Assembly (NCBI GenBank): GCA_031291715.1
Contig: JARLIN010000243.1
Location: forward strand, 1-32,230
Direction of reading: 5' to 3'
Length of the DNA stretch: 32,230 nucleotides
Origin: Rhodopila sp.
Lineage (GTDB): Bacteria; Pseudomonadota; Alphaproteobacteria; Acetobacterales; Acetobacteraceae
The stretch's first letter is position 1. The number at the start of each line of letters is the position of its first letter. The notes beneath the pieces are model-generated. The model saw only the letters and a list, made by a program, of their open reading frames with translations, was not told where the DNA came from and did no database searches. The translations under genes and the position numbers were made by a program. Shown piece after piece: positions 9,992 through 28,381 of this stretch.

Positions 9992-11461
9992 CTACGACTC
10001 CAGCAGCCGCCGCAGCAGTTCGACGTCTTCGGCGAAGGTGCCGTCGCGTTCCATCAGTTCGGTCACGCGGGAGACGGCGTGCATCACCGTGGTGTGGTCG
10101 CGGTTGCCGAACTTGCGTCCGATCTCCGGCAGACTGCGGCTGGTGAGTTGCTTGGCCAGGAACATCGCCACCTGCCGCGGCCTTGCCACCGCCCGCGCGC
10201 GACGGGCGGACGACATGTCGGTCAGCCGGATGCTGTAATGTTCCGCGACCTTTTTCTGAATTTCTTCGATTGTGACGCGACGATCGTGCGCTTTCAAAAT
10301 ATCGTGAAGTACTTCGTGCGTCGCCTCTAATGTAACAGGCCGGCCGAACAAGTTGGCATGTGCAACCAGGCGGTTCAGAGCACCTTCTAGTTCACGAACA
10401 TTTGATGTGATCTTGTGCGCCAGGAATTCCAGCACCTTCACCGGCACATCGACGCCGGCCCGCGCTGCTTTCGCCTCCAGGATGGAGATGCGCAGCTCAT
10501 AGGTCGTCGAATGCAGGTCGGCCACCATCCCGCAGCCCAGGCGGGTGCGCAACCGGTGCTCCAACCCGTTCAGGTCGGATGGCGACTTGTCGGCCGAGAC
10601 GACGATCTGCTTTCCCGCCTCCACCAGATAGTTGAAAGTATGGAAGAATTCTTCCTGCGTATTGTCCTTGCCGATCAGGAACTGCAGGTCGTCGATCATC
10701 AACACATCGACGCTGCGGAGGTTCTCCTTGAACTCCATCGTCGATTGGCTGCGGATCGCAGCAATGAATCGATACATGAATTTTTCAGCCGACATGTACG
10801 CGACCGAGACCGGGCTGCTGGTACGGTCCGTCAACTCCCACGCAATGGCGTGCATGAGATGGGTCTTCCCCAAGCCGACGCCGCCATACAAGAACAACGG
10901 GTTGAATCCCGGGCTGGACGGACGTTCCGCCACGCGACGGGCACAGGCATAGGCGAATTCGTTCGGCTTGCCGACGACGAACCCTTCGAAGGTGAAGCGC
11001 GGATCAAGCGGTGCGGCGAGGTCGGAGCGCGGTTCGGACCGATCGTCCGGCCACCCTGCGGGGCTCGGTGCGGCCTCGGTGCGGCCCGGGCGCGGGGGTT
11101 CGATACTTGCCGGGGGAACCGGCTCCCGGAGCCTCTCCCTGGGGGCGGACAGGGTTTCCACTGGTGGCGGGGACGGAGAAGCCGCAGTGCCCACGCGAAC
11201 ATCGACGCGGCGGACGGTTGGGTTTTCCGCCTGCCACAGCGCGCGCAGCCGGTCGCTGTAACGGGTTGATACCCAATCGCGCAGAAAGCGTGTTGGCAGG
11301 GTTACCGTGATCTCATCGCCGTCAAGACCCGCCAGTGTCATCTGGCGCAGCCATGTTCGGTACTCGACCTCGCCCACTTCGGCCTGCAGCCGCCCTCGGA
11401 TCTTTGCCCACTGGGCCGCGAGTTGCGGCATTTCCACGATCTCGGTTTCAGTCGTGGTCAT
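9992..11461 (-). CDS. dnaA: chromosomal replication initiator protein DnaA
   Basis: From ATG 11461: MTTTETEIVEMPQLAAQWAKIRGRLQAEVGEVEYRTWLRQM; Walker A NPLFLYGGVGLGKTHLMHAI; DVLMIDDLQFL; C-terminal RARAVARPRQVAMFLAKQLTSRSLPEIGRKFGNRDHTTVMHAVSRV (DnaA-box-binding signature). Confidence 0.98.
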   Translation of the reverse strand: MTTTETEIVEMPQLAAQWAKIRGRLQAEVGEVEYRTWLRQMTLAGLDGDEITVTLPTRFLRDWVSTRYSDRLRALWQAENPTVRRVDVRVGTAASPSPPPVETLSAPRERLREPVPPASIEPPRPGRTEAAPSPAGWPDDRSEPRSDLAAPLDPRFTFEGFVVGKPNEFAYACARRVAERPSSPGFNPLFLYGGVGLGKTHLMHAIAWELTDRTSSPVSVAYMSAEKFMYRFIAAIRSQSTMEFKENLRSVDVLMIDDLQFLIGKDNTQEEFFHTFNYLVEAGKQIVVSADKSPSDLNGLEHRLRTRLGCGMVADLHSTTYELRISILEAKAARAGVDVPVKVLEFLAHKITSNVRELEGALNRLVAHANLFGRPVTLEATHEVLHDILKAHDRRVTIEEIQKKVAEHYSIRLTDMSSARRARAVARPRQVAMFLAKQLTSRSLPEIGRKFGNRDHTTVMHAVSRVTELMERDGTFAEDVELLRRLLES

Positions 11462-11874
11462 CCAAAACTCCCCCCGCGTTGGCGGTACGCAGCTAGATTT
11501 GAAGTTCGTTACCGGCGATTTGAAATCGGCCGGCTCTTCTCCCTCATCTTGGTCGGCGCGGAACACAGTTATCCACCCCCTCACGAGGGTTCGACTTCGG
11601 ATATCATGGGTTTCCGGCTGACGAGACGAAGTATGTCAGAGATTAGGGCGGAGGCAATGGAAAATTCGCGCCGTTCAATCGAATCTAAATAAACGAAATA
11701 ACATTACCACGACGGATTACCTGCCACGACAATGGGTGTCGCCCCTATCGGGGCGGGGGATTTTTCGATATTAAAACGGGTATATTCGTATAGTAACGAC
11801 TATCCACTGGATAGTCCCAACCATGCTCGCCAGGAGCAGTCCGGTCAACCTCCCCAGTCGACCGGTCCCAAAAA
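11462..11874. promoter_or_regulatory. dnaA upstream/rpsT-dnaA intergenic region with candidate DnaA-box-like sites (possible autoregulatory or oriC-like region)
   Basis: TTATCCACC at 11569-11577 (one mismatch to TTATCCACA); perfect palindrome GACTATCCACTGGATAGTC at 11798-11816; AT-rich stretch about 11757-11797; GAATC (GANTC) at 11681. Confidence 0.4.
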
Positions 11875-21420: not shown

Positions 21421-24090
21421 CTACGCCGTCCGGTCGCCGCCTGCCCCCAGCGCCGCCTGCGCGGCGGCCAGCCGGGCGACCGGCACGCGGAACGGGCTGC
21501 ATGACACGTAGTCCAGCCCGACCTGCTCGCAGAACGCGATGGACGCAGGATCGCCGCCATGCTCCCCGCAAATGCCGAGCTTGAGGTTCGGCTTCGTGGC
21601 GCGGCCCTTCTCGGCGGCGATGCGGACCATCTCGCCGACACCCTCAACGTCGATCGACACGAATGGGTCCTTCGGCAGGATTCCCGCCTCCACATAGTGC
21701 GGCAGGAACTTGCCGGCATCATCGCGCGACAGGCCGAACACAGTCTGTGTCAGATCGTTGGTGCCAAAGCTGAAGAAGTCGGCAACTTCGGCGATCTTGT
21801 CGGCCAGGATGGCGGCGCGCGGCAGCTCGATCATGGTCCCGACGCTGTATTCGATCGTCGTGCCGGTTTCCTTGAACACCTCAGCGGCGATCCTATCGAC
21901 CTGGGCGCGGGTGATCTCCAGTTCCTTCTTCATGCCCACCAGCGGGATCATGATTTCCGGATGCGGCGCCTTGCCGGTTTCCTTGGCGACGGCGATCGCA
22001 CCCTCGAAGATCGCGCGAGCCTGCATCTCGTAGATTTCCGGAAAGGAAATGCCCAGGCGGCACCCGCGATGGCCCAGCATCGGGTTCGCCTCGGCCAGTT
22101 CCGCCGCGCGCTGGCGGATGGTCCCGATATCGGTGCCCAGCGAGTCCGCCACTTCCTGCATTTCCTGGTCGCCGTGCGGCAGGAACTCGTGGAGTGGTGG
22201 GTCGAGCAGCCGAATGGTCACCGGCAACCCGGCCATGATGGTGAACAGTTGCCGGAAATCCTCCCGTTGGAACGGCAGCAAGCGCGCCAGCGCGGTACGC
22301 CGGCCGGCCTCACTGTGGGAGATGATCATCTGGCGGACCGCCAGAATGCGCTCCGGGTTGAAGAACATATGTTCGGTCCGGCACAGGCCGATACCCTCGG
22401 CGCCGAACTTGCGGGCCGTTTCGGCGTCCATCGGCGTTTCCGCGTTGGCACGCACGCCCATGCGGCGGCACTTGTCGGCCCATTCCATCAACGTGCCGAA
22501 ATCGCCCGACATGGCGGGCTCGATCATCGCGACTGGGCCGACGAACACCTCACCGGTGGCGCCGTCGAGCGTGATGACCTCACCGGCGCGGATGAACTTG
22601 CCGCCGGCGGCGAGAACCTGGCTGTTGTAGTCCACGCTGATGCCGCCGGCACCAGCGACGCAGGGGCGCCCCATGCCGCGGGCGACCACGGCGGCGTGGC
22701 TGGTCATACCGCCGCGGGTGGTCAGGATGCCCTTGGCGGCGTGCATGCCGTGGATGTCCTCGGGGCTGGTCTCGATCCGGACCAGGATGACGGACTCGCC
22801 CTTGGCGGCGCGGCTTTCGGCTTCATCCGCGCTGAACACGACGGTGCCGCAGGCCGCACCGGGGCTGGCGGGCAGGCCTTTGCCGAGCAGGGTACGCGGG
22901 GCCTTCGGGTCCAGCATCGGATGCAGTAGCTGATCCAGCGAGGACGGGTTGACGCGCATCACCGCCTCAGACTCGTCGATCAGGCCCTCGCGGGCCATTT
23001 CCACCGCCATGCGCAGTGAGGCCGCGGCGGTGCGTTTGCCGTTGCGGGTCTGCAGCATGTACAGCTTGTTCTGCTGAACGGTGAACTCGATGTCCTGCAT
23101 GTCCTTGTAGTGCTTTTCCAAGGTCGAGCGGACTTCCATCAGCTCCGCGTACGCCTTGGGCATGGCTTGTTCGAGCGGGATTTCGCCCGGCTTGGCGACG
23201 GAGGCGGACAGCGGCTGCGGCGTGCGAATGCCGGCAACGACGTCCTCGCCCTGCGCATTCACCAGATACTCGCCATAGAACATGTTCTCGCCGGTCGACG
23301 GGTCGCGGGTGAAGCAGACGCCGGTGGCGCAGTCGTTACCCATGTTGCCGAACACCATGGCCTGGACGTTCACCGCGGTGCCCCAACCGGCGGGGATGTC
23401 GTGCAGGCGGCGATAGGTGATCGCGCGCGGGTTCATCCAGGAGCCGAACACGGCGCCGATGGCGCCCCAAAGTTGCTCGTGCGGATCCTGCGGGAATGGA
23501 TTCCCGGTCTCCTGATGGACGAGATCCTTGTAGCCCTCCACCACACCGCGCCAGTTCTGCGCGCTCAGCGCAGTGTCCTCGATCACGTTGGCGTCGAGTT
23601 TGGCGTGCTCGATAATCTCTTCGAAGCGGTGATGATCGACGCCCAGCACGACCGAGCCGTACATCTGGATGAATCGGCGGTAGGAATCCCACGCGAAGCG
23701 GTCATCGTTGGCGGCTTTGGCGAGGCCTTCGACGGTGATGTCGTTCAGGCCGAGGTTCAGGACCGTGTCCATCATCCCCGGCATCGACACGCGGGCGCCG
23801 GAGCGAACCGAAACCAGCAGCGGATGCGCGTTGTCGCCAAAATTCAGGCCGACCGCTTTCTCGACCGCGGCCAGGGCGGCATCGACCTGGCCCTTCAGGT
23901 CGGCCGGGTAGTTGCGGTCATTGTCGTAGAAGGCGGTGCAAACATCCGCCGTGATAGTAAAGCCCGGCGGGACCGGCAGGCCGATCGACGACATTTCCGC
24001 GAGATTGGCCCCCTTCCCACCCAGGAGATTGCGCATGTCCGCTCGGCCTTCGTTGTGGCCGGCGCCGAAGCTGTAAACCCACTTGGTCAT
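21421..24090 (-). CDS. ppdK: pyruvate, phosphate dikinase
   Basis: MTKWVYSFGAGHNEGRADMRNLLGGKGANLAEMSSIGLPVPPGFTIT...GILTTRGGMTSHAAVVARGMGRPCVAGAG...FGTNDLTQTVFGLSRDDAGKFL...KLGICGEHGGDPASIAFCEQVGLDYVSCSPFRVPVARLAAAQAAL. Confidence 0.97.
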   Translation of the reverse strand: MTKWVYSFGAGHNEGRADMRNLLGGKGANLAEMSSIGLPVPPGFTITADVCTAFYDNDRNYPADLKGQVDAALAAVEKAVGLNFGDNAHPLLVSVRSGARVSMPGMMDTVLNLGLNDITVEGLAKAANDDRFAWDSYRRFIQMYGSVVLGVDHHRFEEIIEHAKLDANVIEDTALSAQNWRGVVEGYKDLVHQETGNPFPQDPHEQLWGAIGAVFGSWMNPRAITYRRLHDIPAGWGTAVNVQAMVFGNMGNDCATGVCFTRDPSTGENMFYGEYLVNAQGEDVVAGIRTPQPLSASVAKPGEIPLEQAMPKAYAELMEVRSTLEKHYKDMQDIEFTVQQNKLYMLQTRNGKRTAAASLRMAVEMAREGLIDESEAVMRVNPSSLDQLLHPMLDPKAPRTLLGKGLPASPGAACGTVVFSADEAESRAAKGESVILVRIETSPEDIHGMHAAKGILTTRGGMTSHAAVVARGMGRPCVAGAGGISVDYNSQVLAAGGKFIRAGEVITLDGATGEVFVGPVAMIEPAMSGDFGTLMEWADKCRRMGVRANAETPMDAETARKFGAEGIGLCRTEHMFFNPERILAVRQMIISHSEAGRRTALARLLPFQREDFRQLFTIMAGLPVTIRLLDPPLHEFLPHGDQEMQEVADSLGTDIGTIRQRAAELAEANPMLGHRGCRLGISFPEIYEMQARAIFEGAIAVAKETGKAPHPEIMIPLVGMKKELEITRAQVDRIAAEVFKETGTTIEYSVGTMIELPRAAILADKIAEVADFFSFGTNDLTQTVFGLSRDDAGKFLPHYVEAGILPKDPFVSIDVEGVGEMVRIAAEKGRATKPNLKLGICGEHGGDPASIAFCEQVGLDYVSCSPFRVPVARLAAAQAALGAGGDRTA

Positions 24091-24102
24091 GGCAGACCCC
24101 AT

Positions 24103-26157
24103 CTAGCCTTCGATTCGGGAGAAATCAGCGATCTGGTCCATGATGGACCGGACCTGGTTGAGCAAACGCAAACGATTGCGGCGTAAATCGGGCTCCGTGG
24201 CGTTCACGGTCACCTTTTCAAAGAACGCGTCCAGGGGCGCGCGGATGCCGGCCATATAGACCATGGCTCCGCGATAGTCCTCGCGCCTTAGCGTTTCCTC
24301 GGCGGCGACCGTCAGAGCGGCCGCGGCGGTGTAGAGCTGCGCTTCCTCATCGGATCGCAGCTCGTCAACATCGGGTGCGCCGGAATGGGGCCCGTCTTTA
24401 CGGTCCTCGATGCGCAGGATGTTCGCCGCACGGCGGTAGCCGGCGAGCAGATTCGTGCCATCCGACGCCGCGAGCAATTCACCCACCGCCTCGGCGCGGG
24501 CGAGCAGTGCGACCAGATCGTCGTCCTGACCGGCCTCCAGGCCGCGCGCGCCGAACACCGCATTCAGAATATCGTAGCGCGCACCCTCCACCCGGAGCTG
24601 AACGGTCAGGCGTTCGACGATGAACTCGAACACGGCCTGCACCGTGGCCTGATCCGCGGTGGCGGCAGCCAGCAGATCGCGCAGGTGCACGCGCAGGCCG
24701 TTTTCGCGGATGATGCGGATCACGCCGAGCGCCGCCCGGCGCAGCGCATAGGGATCACCCGAGCCGGTGGGCTTTTCGCCGATCGCGAAAAAGCCCGTCA
24801 GTTGGTCCAGCTTGTCGGCCAGGGCGACGGCGATCGAAACCGGGGCGGACGGTGCGGCCTCGGCGGGACCACGCGGGGCGTAGTGGTCGCGGATGGCGTC
24901 CGCGACTTCGCGGGCTTCGCCGTCGTGCAGCGCGTAATAGCGGCCCATGACACCTTGCAGCTCGGGGAACTCCCCGACCATGCCGGTGACGAGGTCCGCC
25001 TTCGCCAGTTCAGCGGCGCGGGCGGCCTGGACCGGGTCGGCGTCGACCAGAGGGGCGATTCTGGCGGCCAGGGCCTTGAGGCGACGGACACGGTCGCCCT
25101 GCGTTCCGAGTTTGGCCTGAAAGGTAACCTTGTCGAGCGCCGGGATGCGGCTTTCCAGACGGGTCTTGCGGTCCAGGTCCCAGAAATGGCGGGCGTCGGA
25201 GAAACGGGCGCGGAGGACTCGTTCATTGCCGGCGATGATGGCGGCGCCGTGGTCGTCGGCCTCGATATTGGCGACGAAGGCGAACCAGGGGGCGGCATCA
25301 CCCTCGGCGGTGCGCAAGGCGAAGTAGCGCTGGTTCACGCGCATGGAGACCTGCATGACCTCCGGCGGCAGATCCATGTGCTCGTCCGCGATACGGCCCA
25401 GGTGCGGCACCGGCCATTCGACCAGACCGGCGACCTCATCCAGCAGACCGGGGTCATCCACAACGGTCAGGGATTTCTCGGCAGCCAGACCGGCGATACG
25501 GTCGGCGATGACGCGCTTGCGGTCGGTGGCATCGACCAGGACGCGGTGCGCGGCCAGCTTCTCCCGCCAATCGGCGGCGGAGGACACAGCGAAAGCGCCA
25601 GGGGCGTGGAAGCGGTGGCCCTCAGTCAGGTTGCCGGACGCAAGATTGTGGCCGTCATCGCTGCCGTCACGCAGGTCGAACGGCACGACCACACCGTCCA
25701 GCAGGCAGATGATGCGGCGGAGGGGACGGACCCAGACGAAGTTGCTACTGCCACCCCAGCGCATGGATTTCGGCCAGTGGAAGCGGCGCAGCAGTCCCGG
25801 CATGGCGCCGGCGATCAGCTCGGCGGCGGAGATCGCGGCGGCGCTTTTCTCCAGCACCCAGTAGTCGCCTTCCTGGCGAAGCTGGTCGCGGGTGGCATTG
25901 TGCTTGCGAAGGAAGCCGGTCAGCGCCTGTTCCGGCGCGTTGGCGCGGGGGCCGCGTTCGGTGGAACTGGCGGCGGCGACTTCGGCGGCCACCTCGGCAC
26001 CCAGCGCGATGCGGCGGGGACCGAACCAGGTGACGACGTTGGCGGGCGCGATCTGGGCGAGCACCGCCGTGACAGCGCGTTCGAGTTCGGCCGCGCCGCC
26101 GCGCTGCATGCGAGCGGGGATTTCCTCGCTGAACAGTTCCAGGAAAAGTTCGGGCAT
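24103..26157 (-). CDS. glyS: glycyl-tRNA synthetase beta subunit
   Basis: MPELFLELFSEEIPARMQ...GPRRIALGAEV...FHWPKSMRWGGSSNFVWVRPLRRIICLLDGVVVPF; ATG 26157 immediately follows the vapC stop. Confidence 0.97.
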   Translation of the reverse strand: MPELFLELFSEEIPARMQRGGAAELERAVTAVLAQIAPANVVTWFGPRRIALGAEVAAEVAAASSTERGPRANAPEQALTGFLRKHNATRDQLRQEGDYWVLEKSAAAISAAELIAGAMPGLLRRFHWPKSMRWGGSSNFVWVRPLRRIICLLDGVVVPFDLRDGSDDGHNLASGNLTEGHRFHAPGAFAVSSAADWREKLAAHRVLVDATDRKRVIADRIAGLAAEKSLTVVDDPGLLDEVAGLVEWPVPHLGRIADEHMDLPPEVMQVSMRVNQRYFALRTAEGDAAPWFAFVANIEADDHGAAIIAGNERVLRARFSDARHFWDLDRKTRLESRIPALDKVTFQAKLGTQGDRVRRLKALAARIAPLVDADPVQAARAAELAKADLVTGMVGEFPELQGVMGRYYALHDGEAREVADAIRDHYAPRGPAEAAPSAPVSIAVALADKLDQLTGFFAIGEKPTGSGDPYALRRAALGVIRIIRENGLRVHLRDLLAAATADQATVQAVFEFIVERLTVQLRVEGARYDILNAVFGARGLEAGQDDDLVALLARAEAVGELLAASDGTNLLAGYRRAANILRIEDRKDGPHSGAPDVDELRSDEEAQLYTAAAALTVAAEETLRREDYRGAMVYMAGIRAPLDAFFEKVTVNATEPDLRRNRLRLLNQVRSIMDQIADFSRIEG

Positions 26158-26159
26158 GT

Positions 26160-26555
26160 TCAGTCTTTCAGTGCCGGCTCGACGTCGGTTTGGGCGAAAT
26201 CGTCGCCAATGAACAGGAGGGGCTCTCCCGACAGCTTGGCGAGCGCGTAGGCAAAGCAATCGCCATAGTTCAGCTTCGCGGGATGGTTGCCGCGGCCATA
26301 GTCAGCATGGGCGCTCCGGCTGCGATAGGCGGCCTCGACGGTGACAGGCACCAATTCCATGCCAAGTTCTTGAATCAAGTCCTCGAATCTGGCTTTGGCC
26401 CGTGGATTTTTCCGCGAGTCGACGACCATGGCGGCTTCCACCCAGTTCGCGACCGACATGCGCAGCGCGGGCGCATCGACCATGGCCGCGGCCACGCGCG
26501 GCTCATCCGGTTCGTTCAGGATCATCGCCAGAAGTGCTGAGCTATCCACGATCAT
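26160..26555 (-). CDS. vapC: type II toxin, PIN-domain ribonuclease (VapC family)
   Basis: MIVDSSALLAMILNEPDEPRVAAAMVDAPALRMSVANWVEAAMVVDSRKN...LNYGDCFAYALAKLSGEPLLFIGDDFAQTDVEPALKD: PIN acidic residues (D4, E, GDCFAYALA, GDDF). Confidence 0.92.
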   Translation of the reverse strand: MIVDSSALLAMILNEPDEPRVAAAMVDAPALRMSVANWVEAAMVVDSRKNPRAKARFEDLIQELGMELVPVTVEAAYRSRSAHADYGRGNHPAKLNYGDCFAYALAKLSGEPLLFIGDDFAQTDVEPALKD

Positions 26556-26562
26556 CCCATGA

Positions 26563-26826
26563 TCACCGGGGCAAACCCGTCTCATCGTCGTAGAGCCAGC
26601 TATGATCGGAGGTCGGCAGGTCCTCTCCCATGGCGGCGCGGATATCCGAGGTGATCGCACGTAACCGCTTCAGCCGCTGTTCGCGGTCCTGGCTTTGCAA
26701 CTGCCGATGGAGACGCTCACGCAGCGCCTCAGTCACCACAGCCGTCAAGCTCTCGCCGGTCAATTCGGACAGGCGAGAAGCCAGGCGGTAAGCGTCCTCG
26801 CTCTTGATGTTCAGTTGCGTGCCCAT
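26563..26826 (-). CDS. vapB: VapB family antitoxin
   Basis: MGTQLNIKSEDAYRLASRLSELTGESLTAVVTEALRERLHRQLQSQDREQRLKRLRAITSDIRAAMGEDLPTSDHSWLYDDETGLPR, directly upstream of vapC; C-term YDDxGLP typical of VapB. Confidence 0.9.
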   Translation of the reverse strand: MGTQLNIKSEDAYRLASRLSELTGESLTAVVTEALRERLHRQLQSQDREQRLKRLRAITSDIRAAMGEDLPTSDHSWLYDDETGLPR

Positions 26827-26850
26827 ATCCACCTCGTGGTAGATTGTTGG

Positions 26851-26861
26851 ACCATTATGGT
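26851..26861. promoter_or_regulatory. candidate vapBC operator palindrome
   Basis: Perfect ACCAT-T-ATGGT palindrome 25 nt upstream of the vapB ATG; short, so chance occurrence is possible. Confidence 0.3.
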
Positions 26862-26930
26862 AGAATGAGCGTTCCGGCGCCACACACAAAGCATCCCGCC
26901 GGGCGCGGTCATCGTGGAAACCCGCTCTCG

Positions 26931-27089
26931 TCACAGAGGAACCTGTCGCCAGCCATGGTCCGACGTCACATCGTCGGGCCTGTTGACTATGATCTCATCC
27001 GCGATTGCCAACAGACGCGCCTTGAGACCCCTCGCGTCGCGAGGCTGTCGGGCGTCGTCCATCGGAGACGCTTTGGGGATGCCCGTCAT
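26931..27089 (-). CDS. 52-aa ORF overlapping the glyQ stop; resembles a truncated VapB C-terminus
   Basis: [56 protein letters not shown] overlap with glyQ; similar to VapB ...EQRLKRLRAITSDIRAAMGEDLPTSDHSW. Confidence 0.5.
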
Positions 27090-27949
27090 GCCGCCTCTCC
27101 GGCCACCCAGACCTCGCAGCAGCCCTTCGCCAGCGCGCGCACACGGCCGATGTAACTTGCCCGCTCTGTCACGCTGATCACGCCGCGCGCATCCAGCAGA
27201 TTGAACAAATGGCTGGCCTTGATGCACTGGTCGTAGGCCGGAAGCGCCAGCTTCCGCTCCAGCAGGGCGCCGCACTCGCCCTCGGCATCCGTGAAGTGGC
27301 GCGACAGCATGGCGGTGTCGGCGAACTCAAAATTATGCGCGCTGTATTCGCGTTCGGCGCGGAGGAAAACGTCGCCGTAGCTCACCCCTGCCCCGTTGAA
27401 GTCCAGGTCGTAAACGTTTTCCTTGTCCTGGACATACATTGCCAGGCGTTCCAGCCCGTAGGTCATCTCGAAGCTGGGATAGGTCACCGGAATACCGCCG
27501 ACCTGCTGGAAATAGGTGAACTGGCCGACCTCCATGCCGTCGCACCAGACTTCCCAACCCAGGCCCCAGGCGCCCAGGGTCGGGCTTTCCCAGTCGTCCT
27601 CGACGAAGCGGAAATCGTGCCGCAGCGGGTCCAGGCCGATTTCCCGATAGCTCGCCAGCAGCAGCTCCTGCGCGTCCGCCGGGCTGGGCTTCATGATCAC
27701 CTGGTACTGGTAGTAATGCTGCAGCCGGTTGGGGTTCTCACCATAGCGGCCGTCGGTCGGGCGGCGGCTGGGCTGCACATAGGCGGCGCGCCACGGCTTC
27801 GGCCCCAGCGCGCGCAAAGTGGTGGCCGGATGGAACGTGCCGGCGCCCATCTCAGCGTCGTACGGCTGCAGGATGAGGCAGCCCTGACGCGCCCAGAAAC
27901 CCTGCAGCCGCAGAATAAGGTCCTGAAAGCTGGGTGCGGTTGGGTTCAT
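27086..27949 (-). CDS. glyQ: glycyl-tRNA synthetase alpha subunit
   Basis: [90 protein letters not shown]. Confidence 0.98.
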
Positions 27950-28144: not shown

Positions 28145-28381
28145 TTGGTCGGCCTTCTCGCGCTGGCCGGCTGCGGCTACGGCTACGGCTACGGCTACGG
28201 CTACGGCTACGGCTACGGCTACGGCTACGGCTACGGCTGGATATCCGCCCGCCAGCCGGTCGTCGATGACACGACTTATCAATCTCTGCTCGGCCGATTG
28301 AAGGATCAGGGTTACGACATCGGCCAATTCCGCCGCGTGGCACAGACTCCGGCCAAGATCGGGAATCCCGGCTTCCAATGA
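28145..28381 (+). pseudogene. collapsed/truncated lipocalin (Blc-like) ORF: lipobox, Gly-Tyr repeat, lipocalin-like C-terminus
   Basis: LVGLLALAGC lipobox, then (GY)10, then GWISARQPVVDDTTYQSLLGRLKDQGYDIGQFRRVAQTPAKIGNPGFQ, which resembles the C-terminus of Blc lipocalins (YLWILSRTPxLxxxxYxxLLxxxxxxGFDxSxLxRxxQ). Only a TTG start is available after the in-frame TGA at 28073. Confidence 0.55.
28175..28237 (+). repeat. hexanucleotide microsatellite (GGCTAC)10 plus a partial unit
   Basis: Ten consecutive GGCTAC copies from 28175 to 28234, followed by GGC. Confidence 0.97.

Follow-up and report, generated by a model that had tools for sequence, protein, structure and literature searches.

Why bacteria keep chromosomal toxin-antitoxin (TA) systems is a long-standing question. 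The VapBC30 and VapBC10 modules are type II TA systems that pair an Rv0623-like VapB antitoxin with a PIN-domain VapC toxin, and tRNA-Ser is the cleavage target of both VapC30 and the homologous VapC10 from S. meliloti (PMC10945364). In the T6SS orphan immunity arrays of Vibrio cholerae, modules are exchanged at a fixed locus, the toxin being displaced and the antidote kept (PMC5361080), and CDI/Rhs polymorphic toxins, whose toxin/immunity modules are exchangeable (PMC3150448), combine a constant part with a variable toxin/antidote part. According to theory on TA coevolution and intragenomic conflict, toxin-antitoxin complexes should mediate rock-paper-scissors dynamics (PMC3415908); this model is plasmid-centred, whereas the locus reported here is a single chromosomal one found in full, antitoxin-only and empty states. 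A single orthologous site thereby provides a natural experiment, with full, antitoxin-only, remnant and empty states alongside several exchangeable types in close relatives, and it makes TA allele displacement, protection by orphan antitoxins and stabilisation of a module by an essential operon testable.

The window, i.e. the whole 32,230-nt stretch of Rhodopila sp. DNA that was analysed, carries glyQ, vapB, vapC and glyS in this order on one strand, an arrangement proposed in the preliminary description and confirmed by ORF calls and Pfam matches, as was the spacing of 2 nt between the vapC stop codon (26162-26160) and the glyS ATG (26157). The features of the locus are as follows:

27086..27949, minus strand: glyQ, glycyl-tRNA synthetase alpha subunit (ORF; PF02091, E = 5.4e-140)
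26931..27089, minus strand: orphan VapB C-terminal tail (P0003, 52 aa; ORF, homologous tails in relatives)
26838..26864, minus strand: operator-like direct repeat TCTACC-N15-TCTACC directly upstream of vapB (repeat statistics)
26563..26826, minus strand: vapB, Rv0623-like antitoxin, 87 aa (PF07704, 6.2e-21)
26160..26555, minus strand: vapC, PIN-domain toxin, 131 aa, type C (PF01850, 3.1e-16)
26158..26192, minus strand: last ~10 vapC codons, probable glyS translation start region (locus comparison)
24103..26157, minus strand: glyS, glycyl-tRNA synthetase beta subunit (PF02092, 8.4e-171; TIGR00211, 8e-202)
21421..24102, minus strand: ppdK-like gene, pyruvate phosphate dikinase by eye (ORF and reading)

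The ppdK-like gene directly follows glyS and likely belongs to the same operon. The orphan tail and the operator-like repeat are additions to the preliminary description, as is cassette exchange with orphan antitoxin tails, the main feature of the locus. The best solved relative of the window VapC was M. tuberculosis VapC30 (E = 2.6e-29), and the acidic residues D4, E40, D99 and D119 are present in it and conserved in at least 61 of 64 on-site VapCs. The small antitoxin gene, whose PF07704 product has a predicted DNA-binding N-terminus, lies immediately upstream of the toxin gene, its stop codon 7 nt ahead of the vapC ATG, and regional identity values divide VapB into a conserved N-terminal part and a type-specific C-terminal tail. 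In gene order, domains, catalytic acids, sequence and operator-like repeats the module resembles VapBC30 and VapBC10. Unlike these, it is fixed within glyQ-glyS family-wide, contains a swappable specificity cassette, is accompanied by orphan antitoxin tails and holds the glyS start region inside vapC. A short extra stretch at the vapB-vapC junction (26553-26568) puts the vapC start at the ATG 7 nt on, unlike most relatives, in which vapC starts at a GTG overlapping the vapB stop.

Adjacency of glyQ and glyS, stated as the norm in the preliminary description, was seen outside Acetobacteraceae (an outgroup of 40 loci; the 120 genomes drawn from the order all belonged to Acetobacteraceae), where 33 of 39 measurable gaps spanned -8 to +20 nt, the other six 117-246 nt, and none of the 39 held vapBC. 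For 300 Acetobacteraceae genomes, 150 PF07704 matches were listed, 90 of them from genomes with a listed glyQ position; among these, the glyQ-glyS gap holds 43 of the 90 genes, one per genome. The 6.2-Mb genome of the window has 11 PIN matches and a single PF07704 antitoxin, the window copy. Since the only PF07704 antitoxin of this genome and 43 of those 90 listed for the family sit in the same gap, the placement is not due to chance, and by this comparison vapBC is no stray insertion. Among the loci read in detail, all Acetobacteraceae gaps above 550 nt contained a same-strand vapBC, except L039 with a decayed set. A general insertion hotspot was ruled out by the lack of any other cargo in these gaps.

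On the glyQ+glyS tree Acetobacteraceae formed one clade comprising 65 intact, 10 remnant and 55 empty loci; all three states occurred on both sides of the deepest split of the family and the outgroup was empty, which fits an old arrival followed by many losses. The VapC tree placed 64 on-site VapCs, together with those of L239 and L248, in one group versus 35 other VapCs (2 label changes versus about 30 when shuffled); the underlying alignment is short, and support is low at some forks, with 85% for this group. VapCs from two genomes of the Roseomonas clade (L051, L227) fell in the other VapC clade. Repeated independent insertion of unrelated vapBCs was ruled out by this tree, and a recent plasmid origin by the best plasmid matches (Rhizobium, Sinorhizobium), which were only about 50% identical. 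As read from these phylogenies, one vapBC lineage has resided upstream of glyS since early Acetobacteraceae, and glyS is the partner with which it stays.

Several species lack vapBC altogether, some of them with overlapping glyQ and glyS, and the module is therefore dispensable. Antitoxin-only remnants, with vapB whole or in part and no vapC, were observed in L036, L048 and L090; no locus with a complete vapC and no vapB was seen, matching the order of loss expected for a TA pair. Many of the genomes are metagenome bins, and loci were partly chosen by a high glyQ score. In L239 (G128:C39) and L248 (G043:C2) glyQ is on another contig and vapBC is still directly upstream of glyS. In genome G235 the glyQ contig (C288) ends 6 nt past the glyQ stop codon and the glyS contig (L256, C140) starts inside vapC; such a break within the cassette may stem from a population with more than one cassette type, or just from a drop in coverage. 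The glyQ contig of G310, a genome in which no glyS was found, ends at the same distance past glyQ. A search of a limited literature collection for vapBC together with glyQ and glyS returned no paper.

Sequence variation at the locus is strongly regional. Mean pairwise identity across Rhodopila was 88% for GlyQ, 83% for VapB residues 1-36, 51% for the VapB tail, 56% for VapC residues 1-106, 87% for the VapC end and 76% for GlyS. Sister species were ~95-100% identical in glyQ, the operator, the vapB 5' part, the vapC 3' end and glyS, and ~55% identical in the vapB tail and vapC core. In the pair L080/L085, for instance, nucleotide identity was ~95% through glyQ and the vapB 5' part, ~55% from about +150-170 to +620, and back at 95-100% from about +650, with sharp edges. 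Similar mosaics were found in L071/L070 and L078/L079, and in other genera in L045/L046, L041/L218 and L098/L100, with L003/L010 as an unswapped control pair.

Three VapC types (A, B and C) formed clades on the VapC tree, requiring 2 changes, versus 8 changes on the glyQ+glyS tree; judged from these trees, cassette type ignores the species tree. AU tests on the VapC data rejected the species groupings L070+L071, L080+L085 and L077-79 (p = 4.7e-60, 2.6e-42 and 2e-94), values that are indicative because the groups were picked after the trees had been seen. The nearest VapB tail was of the same VapC type in 22 of 22 genomes, which indicates that tail and toxin travel together. The alignments and trees demonstrate a locus with conserved ends (operator and VapB N-terminus on one side, VapC C-terminus and glyS start on the other) and a middle that comes in divergent, matched types exchanged between species. 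As in polymorphic toxins, a variable toxin/antidote module is found beside conserved sequence with recombinational exchange.

We consider it probable that this is a glyS-anchored polymorphic VapBC locus subject to allele replacement and comparable to orphan-immunity arrays. Under this proposal, homologous recombination at the conserved ends would bring in a cassette from another strain. The previous toxin would be lost, and the previous antitoxin, or its toxin-binding tail alone read from the glyQ mRNA, would sometimes be kept because it protects against residual or newly entering toxin of that earlier type. Lodging at the essential glyS would anchor the locus and supply flanking homology for allele swaps. 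By analogy, the closest precedent is T6SS effector displacement with immunity retention (PMC5361080). Unlike the V. cholerae arrays, the present locus has no secretion or delivery part and VapC would act in the producing cell, in many cases only the toxin-binding half of the antidote is left, and displaced antidotes are located upstream of the resident module. Compared with CDI/Rhs toxins (PMC3150448), both ends are constant here, the variable stretch takes in the antitoxin tail and the toxin core, and there is no export domain. VapC is a 131-aa single PIN domain with no trafficking or delivery domain, so the locus is not classed with T6SS/CDI/Rhs polymorphic toxins.

Orphan antitoxins of another type beside the resident module, a further feature of polymorphic toxins, were also found. 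In the window the tail at 26931-27089 overlaps the glyQ stop codon by 4 nt (ATGA) and represents the decayed C-terminal half of another VapB. Its highest similarity is to type-A tails (63% over 30 aa), while the resident cassette is type C; on its own it gave no Pfam match. Near its end it is frameshifted, the usual ending (10 residues) lying in another frame with a stop at about 26909. Homologous open tails occupy the same position in L074, L077, L078 and L091, where the resident is type A: between glyQ and the operator, L074 carries a type-C VapB tail followed by a type-B one that overlaps it by 4 nt, L078 and L091 have one type-B tail each, and L077 has one type-A tail. L079, with a type-B resident, carries a complete extra VapB of type A between glyQ and the operator. 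Orphan and resident types differed for six of the seven orphans beside a resident, a proportion not significant against random typing; for those six only, the difference excludes simple duplication of the resident.

That orphan tails are decaying debris with no antitoxin function, a reading compatible with allele replacement, we regard as nearly as probable as its opposite. The window tail is frameshifted, that of L090 is fused to a vapC remnant and decaying, and the tails of the sister species L077 and L078 differ; since some tails are decaying and none is clearly common to sister species, retention may be transient. Against debris, the reading frames of five other tails are still open, and three of these begin at the glyQ stop codon, and pairwise dN/dS of orphan tails versus residents was 0.03-0.15, similar to that of residents among themselves, although these low values may reflect time spent as residents, before displacement. 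The most far-reaching form of the allele-replacement explanation is put forward tentatively, as a possibility we hold somewhat less probable than debris: a chromosomal polymorphic compatibility system, in which incompatible VapBC types would compete by recombination for the glyS-anchored slot and retained, glyQ-translated tails would both record types that have been displaced or are arriving and shield the cell from them.

It appears unlikely that, through old polymorphism or tandem duplication, the ancestor had several vapBC types side by side in tandem that were then lost differentially, the tails being leftovers and recent exchange having been slight. The complete extra VapB in tandem in L079 and the tails of two further types in L074 are what such an ancestry could leave behind, but no genome was seen with two complete vapBC units at this site, and sister genomes ~95-98% identical on both flanks have different cores with sharp edges. 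Different sharp-edged cores between near-identical flanks require recombination, as proposed under allele replacement.

The preliminary description had placed the glyS ribosome-binding site inside vapC, and comparison between loci, through the vapC codons kept in remnants, bears this out. In most vapBC-less remnant loci in Acetobacteraceae (e.g. L073, L086, L084, L033 and L090), the glyS ATG is still directly preceded by the final 7-10 codons of vapC, and L038 and L040 keep the Belnapia version of the vapC end, which is intact in L041. Rhodopila-type loci often have AAGGA or AAAGA in the vapC end at Shine-Dalgarno distance from glyS, a motif usually missing from the vapC end in the Roseomonas group. 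Because the vapC end is usually kept where vapBC has been lost, glyS translation probably starts from within vapC. With the ribosome-binding site there, any deletion that took out the whole module would also affect an essential gene.

Of 66 on-site loci (a few near-duplicates included), 53 carry two TTCTACC repeats immediately ahead of vapB, spaced by about two helical turns, or the inverted version of this pair, against a shuffled mean of 0.015. The pair was absent from the vapBC-less loci whose sequences were inspected. In the window the pair is expected 0.01 times and occurs at 26864-26838. The whole genome has two TCTACC-pair sites, the second (G000:C483:1881-1906, L254) beside an SDR-type gene; it adjoins no recognisable TA gene, and use of the operator elsewhere in the genome was rejected on this ground. 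VapB or VapBC would repress its own promoter at these predicted operators. Given that vapBC has its own conserved operator-like repeats, an internal promoter ahead of vapB is likely, and transcripts from it, as well as from glyQ, would run on into glyS. The interval between vapC and glyS showed no terminator-like site, and a crude consensus scan, which is weak evidence, found no sigma-70-like promoter on the coding strand. Promoters and terminators isolating vapBC from glyS had been named beforehand as the finding that would speak against coupling; operator-like repeats are present and an isolating element was not found.

The preliminary description also raised a link with Gly-tRNA supply, and here, while adjacency and the glyS start within vapC stood, its interpretation was unsupported. 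It is very doubtful that vapBC lies at glyS because VapC acts on tRNA-Gly or senses the level of GlyRS, tuning glyS. The position next to glyS is fixed even where glyQ has moved, the glyS start region is in vapC and the repeats make an autoregulated promoter ahead of glyS likely; yet no tRNA genes were found in the window, the nearest characterised relatives, VapC30 and VapC10, cleave tRNA-Ser (PMC10945364), VapC cores with about half of their residues different share the slot in sister species, and the module was lost repeatedly while glyS was kept. Equally improbable is an ordinary selfish TA insertion that landed by chance in an essential operon and is hard to delete, which agrees with the wide occurrence of VapBC and with the constrained deletion seen in the kept vapC 3' end, but is disfavoured by the mosaic and leaves cassette exchange at a fixed place, the matched tail and toxin types (22/22) and the other-type orphan tails unexplained.

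Elsewhere in the window, a hexanucleotide repeat (CGGCTA, 11.8 copies, 98% match) occupies 28168-28238, just upstream of glyQ, inside a plus-strand ORF (28145-28381) whose predicted product is a small, lipoprotein-like protein containing a Gly-Tyr repeat, possibly of variable length. The minus-strand ORF 9992-11584, ~15 kb from glyS-glyQ, reads by eye as DnaA, and the locus may be near the replication origin. By eye, the plus-strand ORF 420-1364 has an apparent signal peptide and a PEP-CTERM-like ending.
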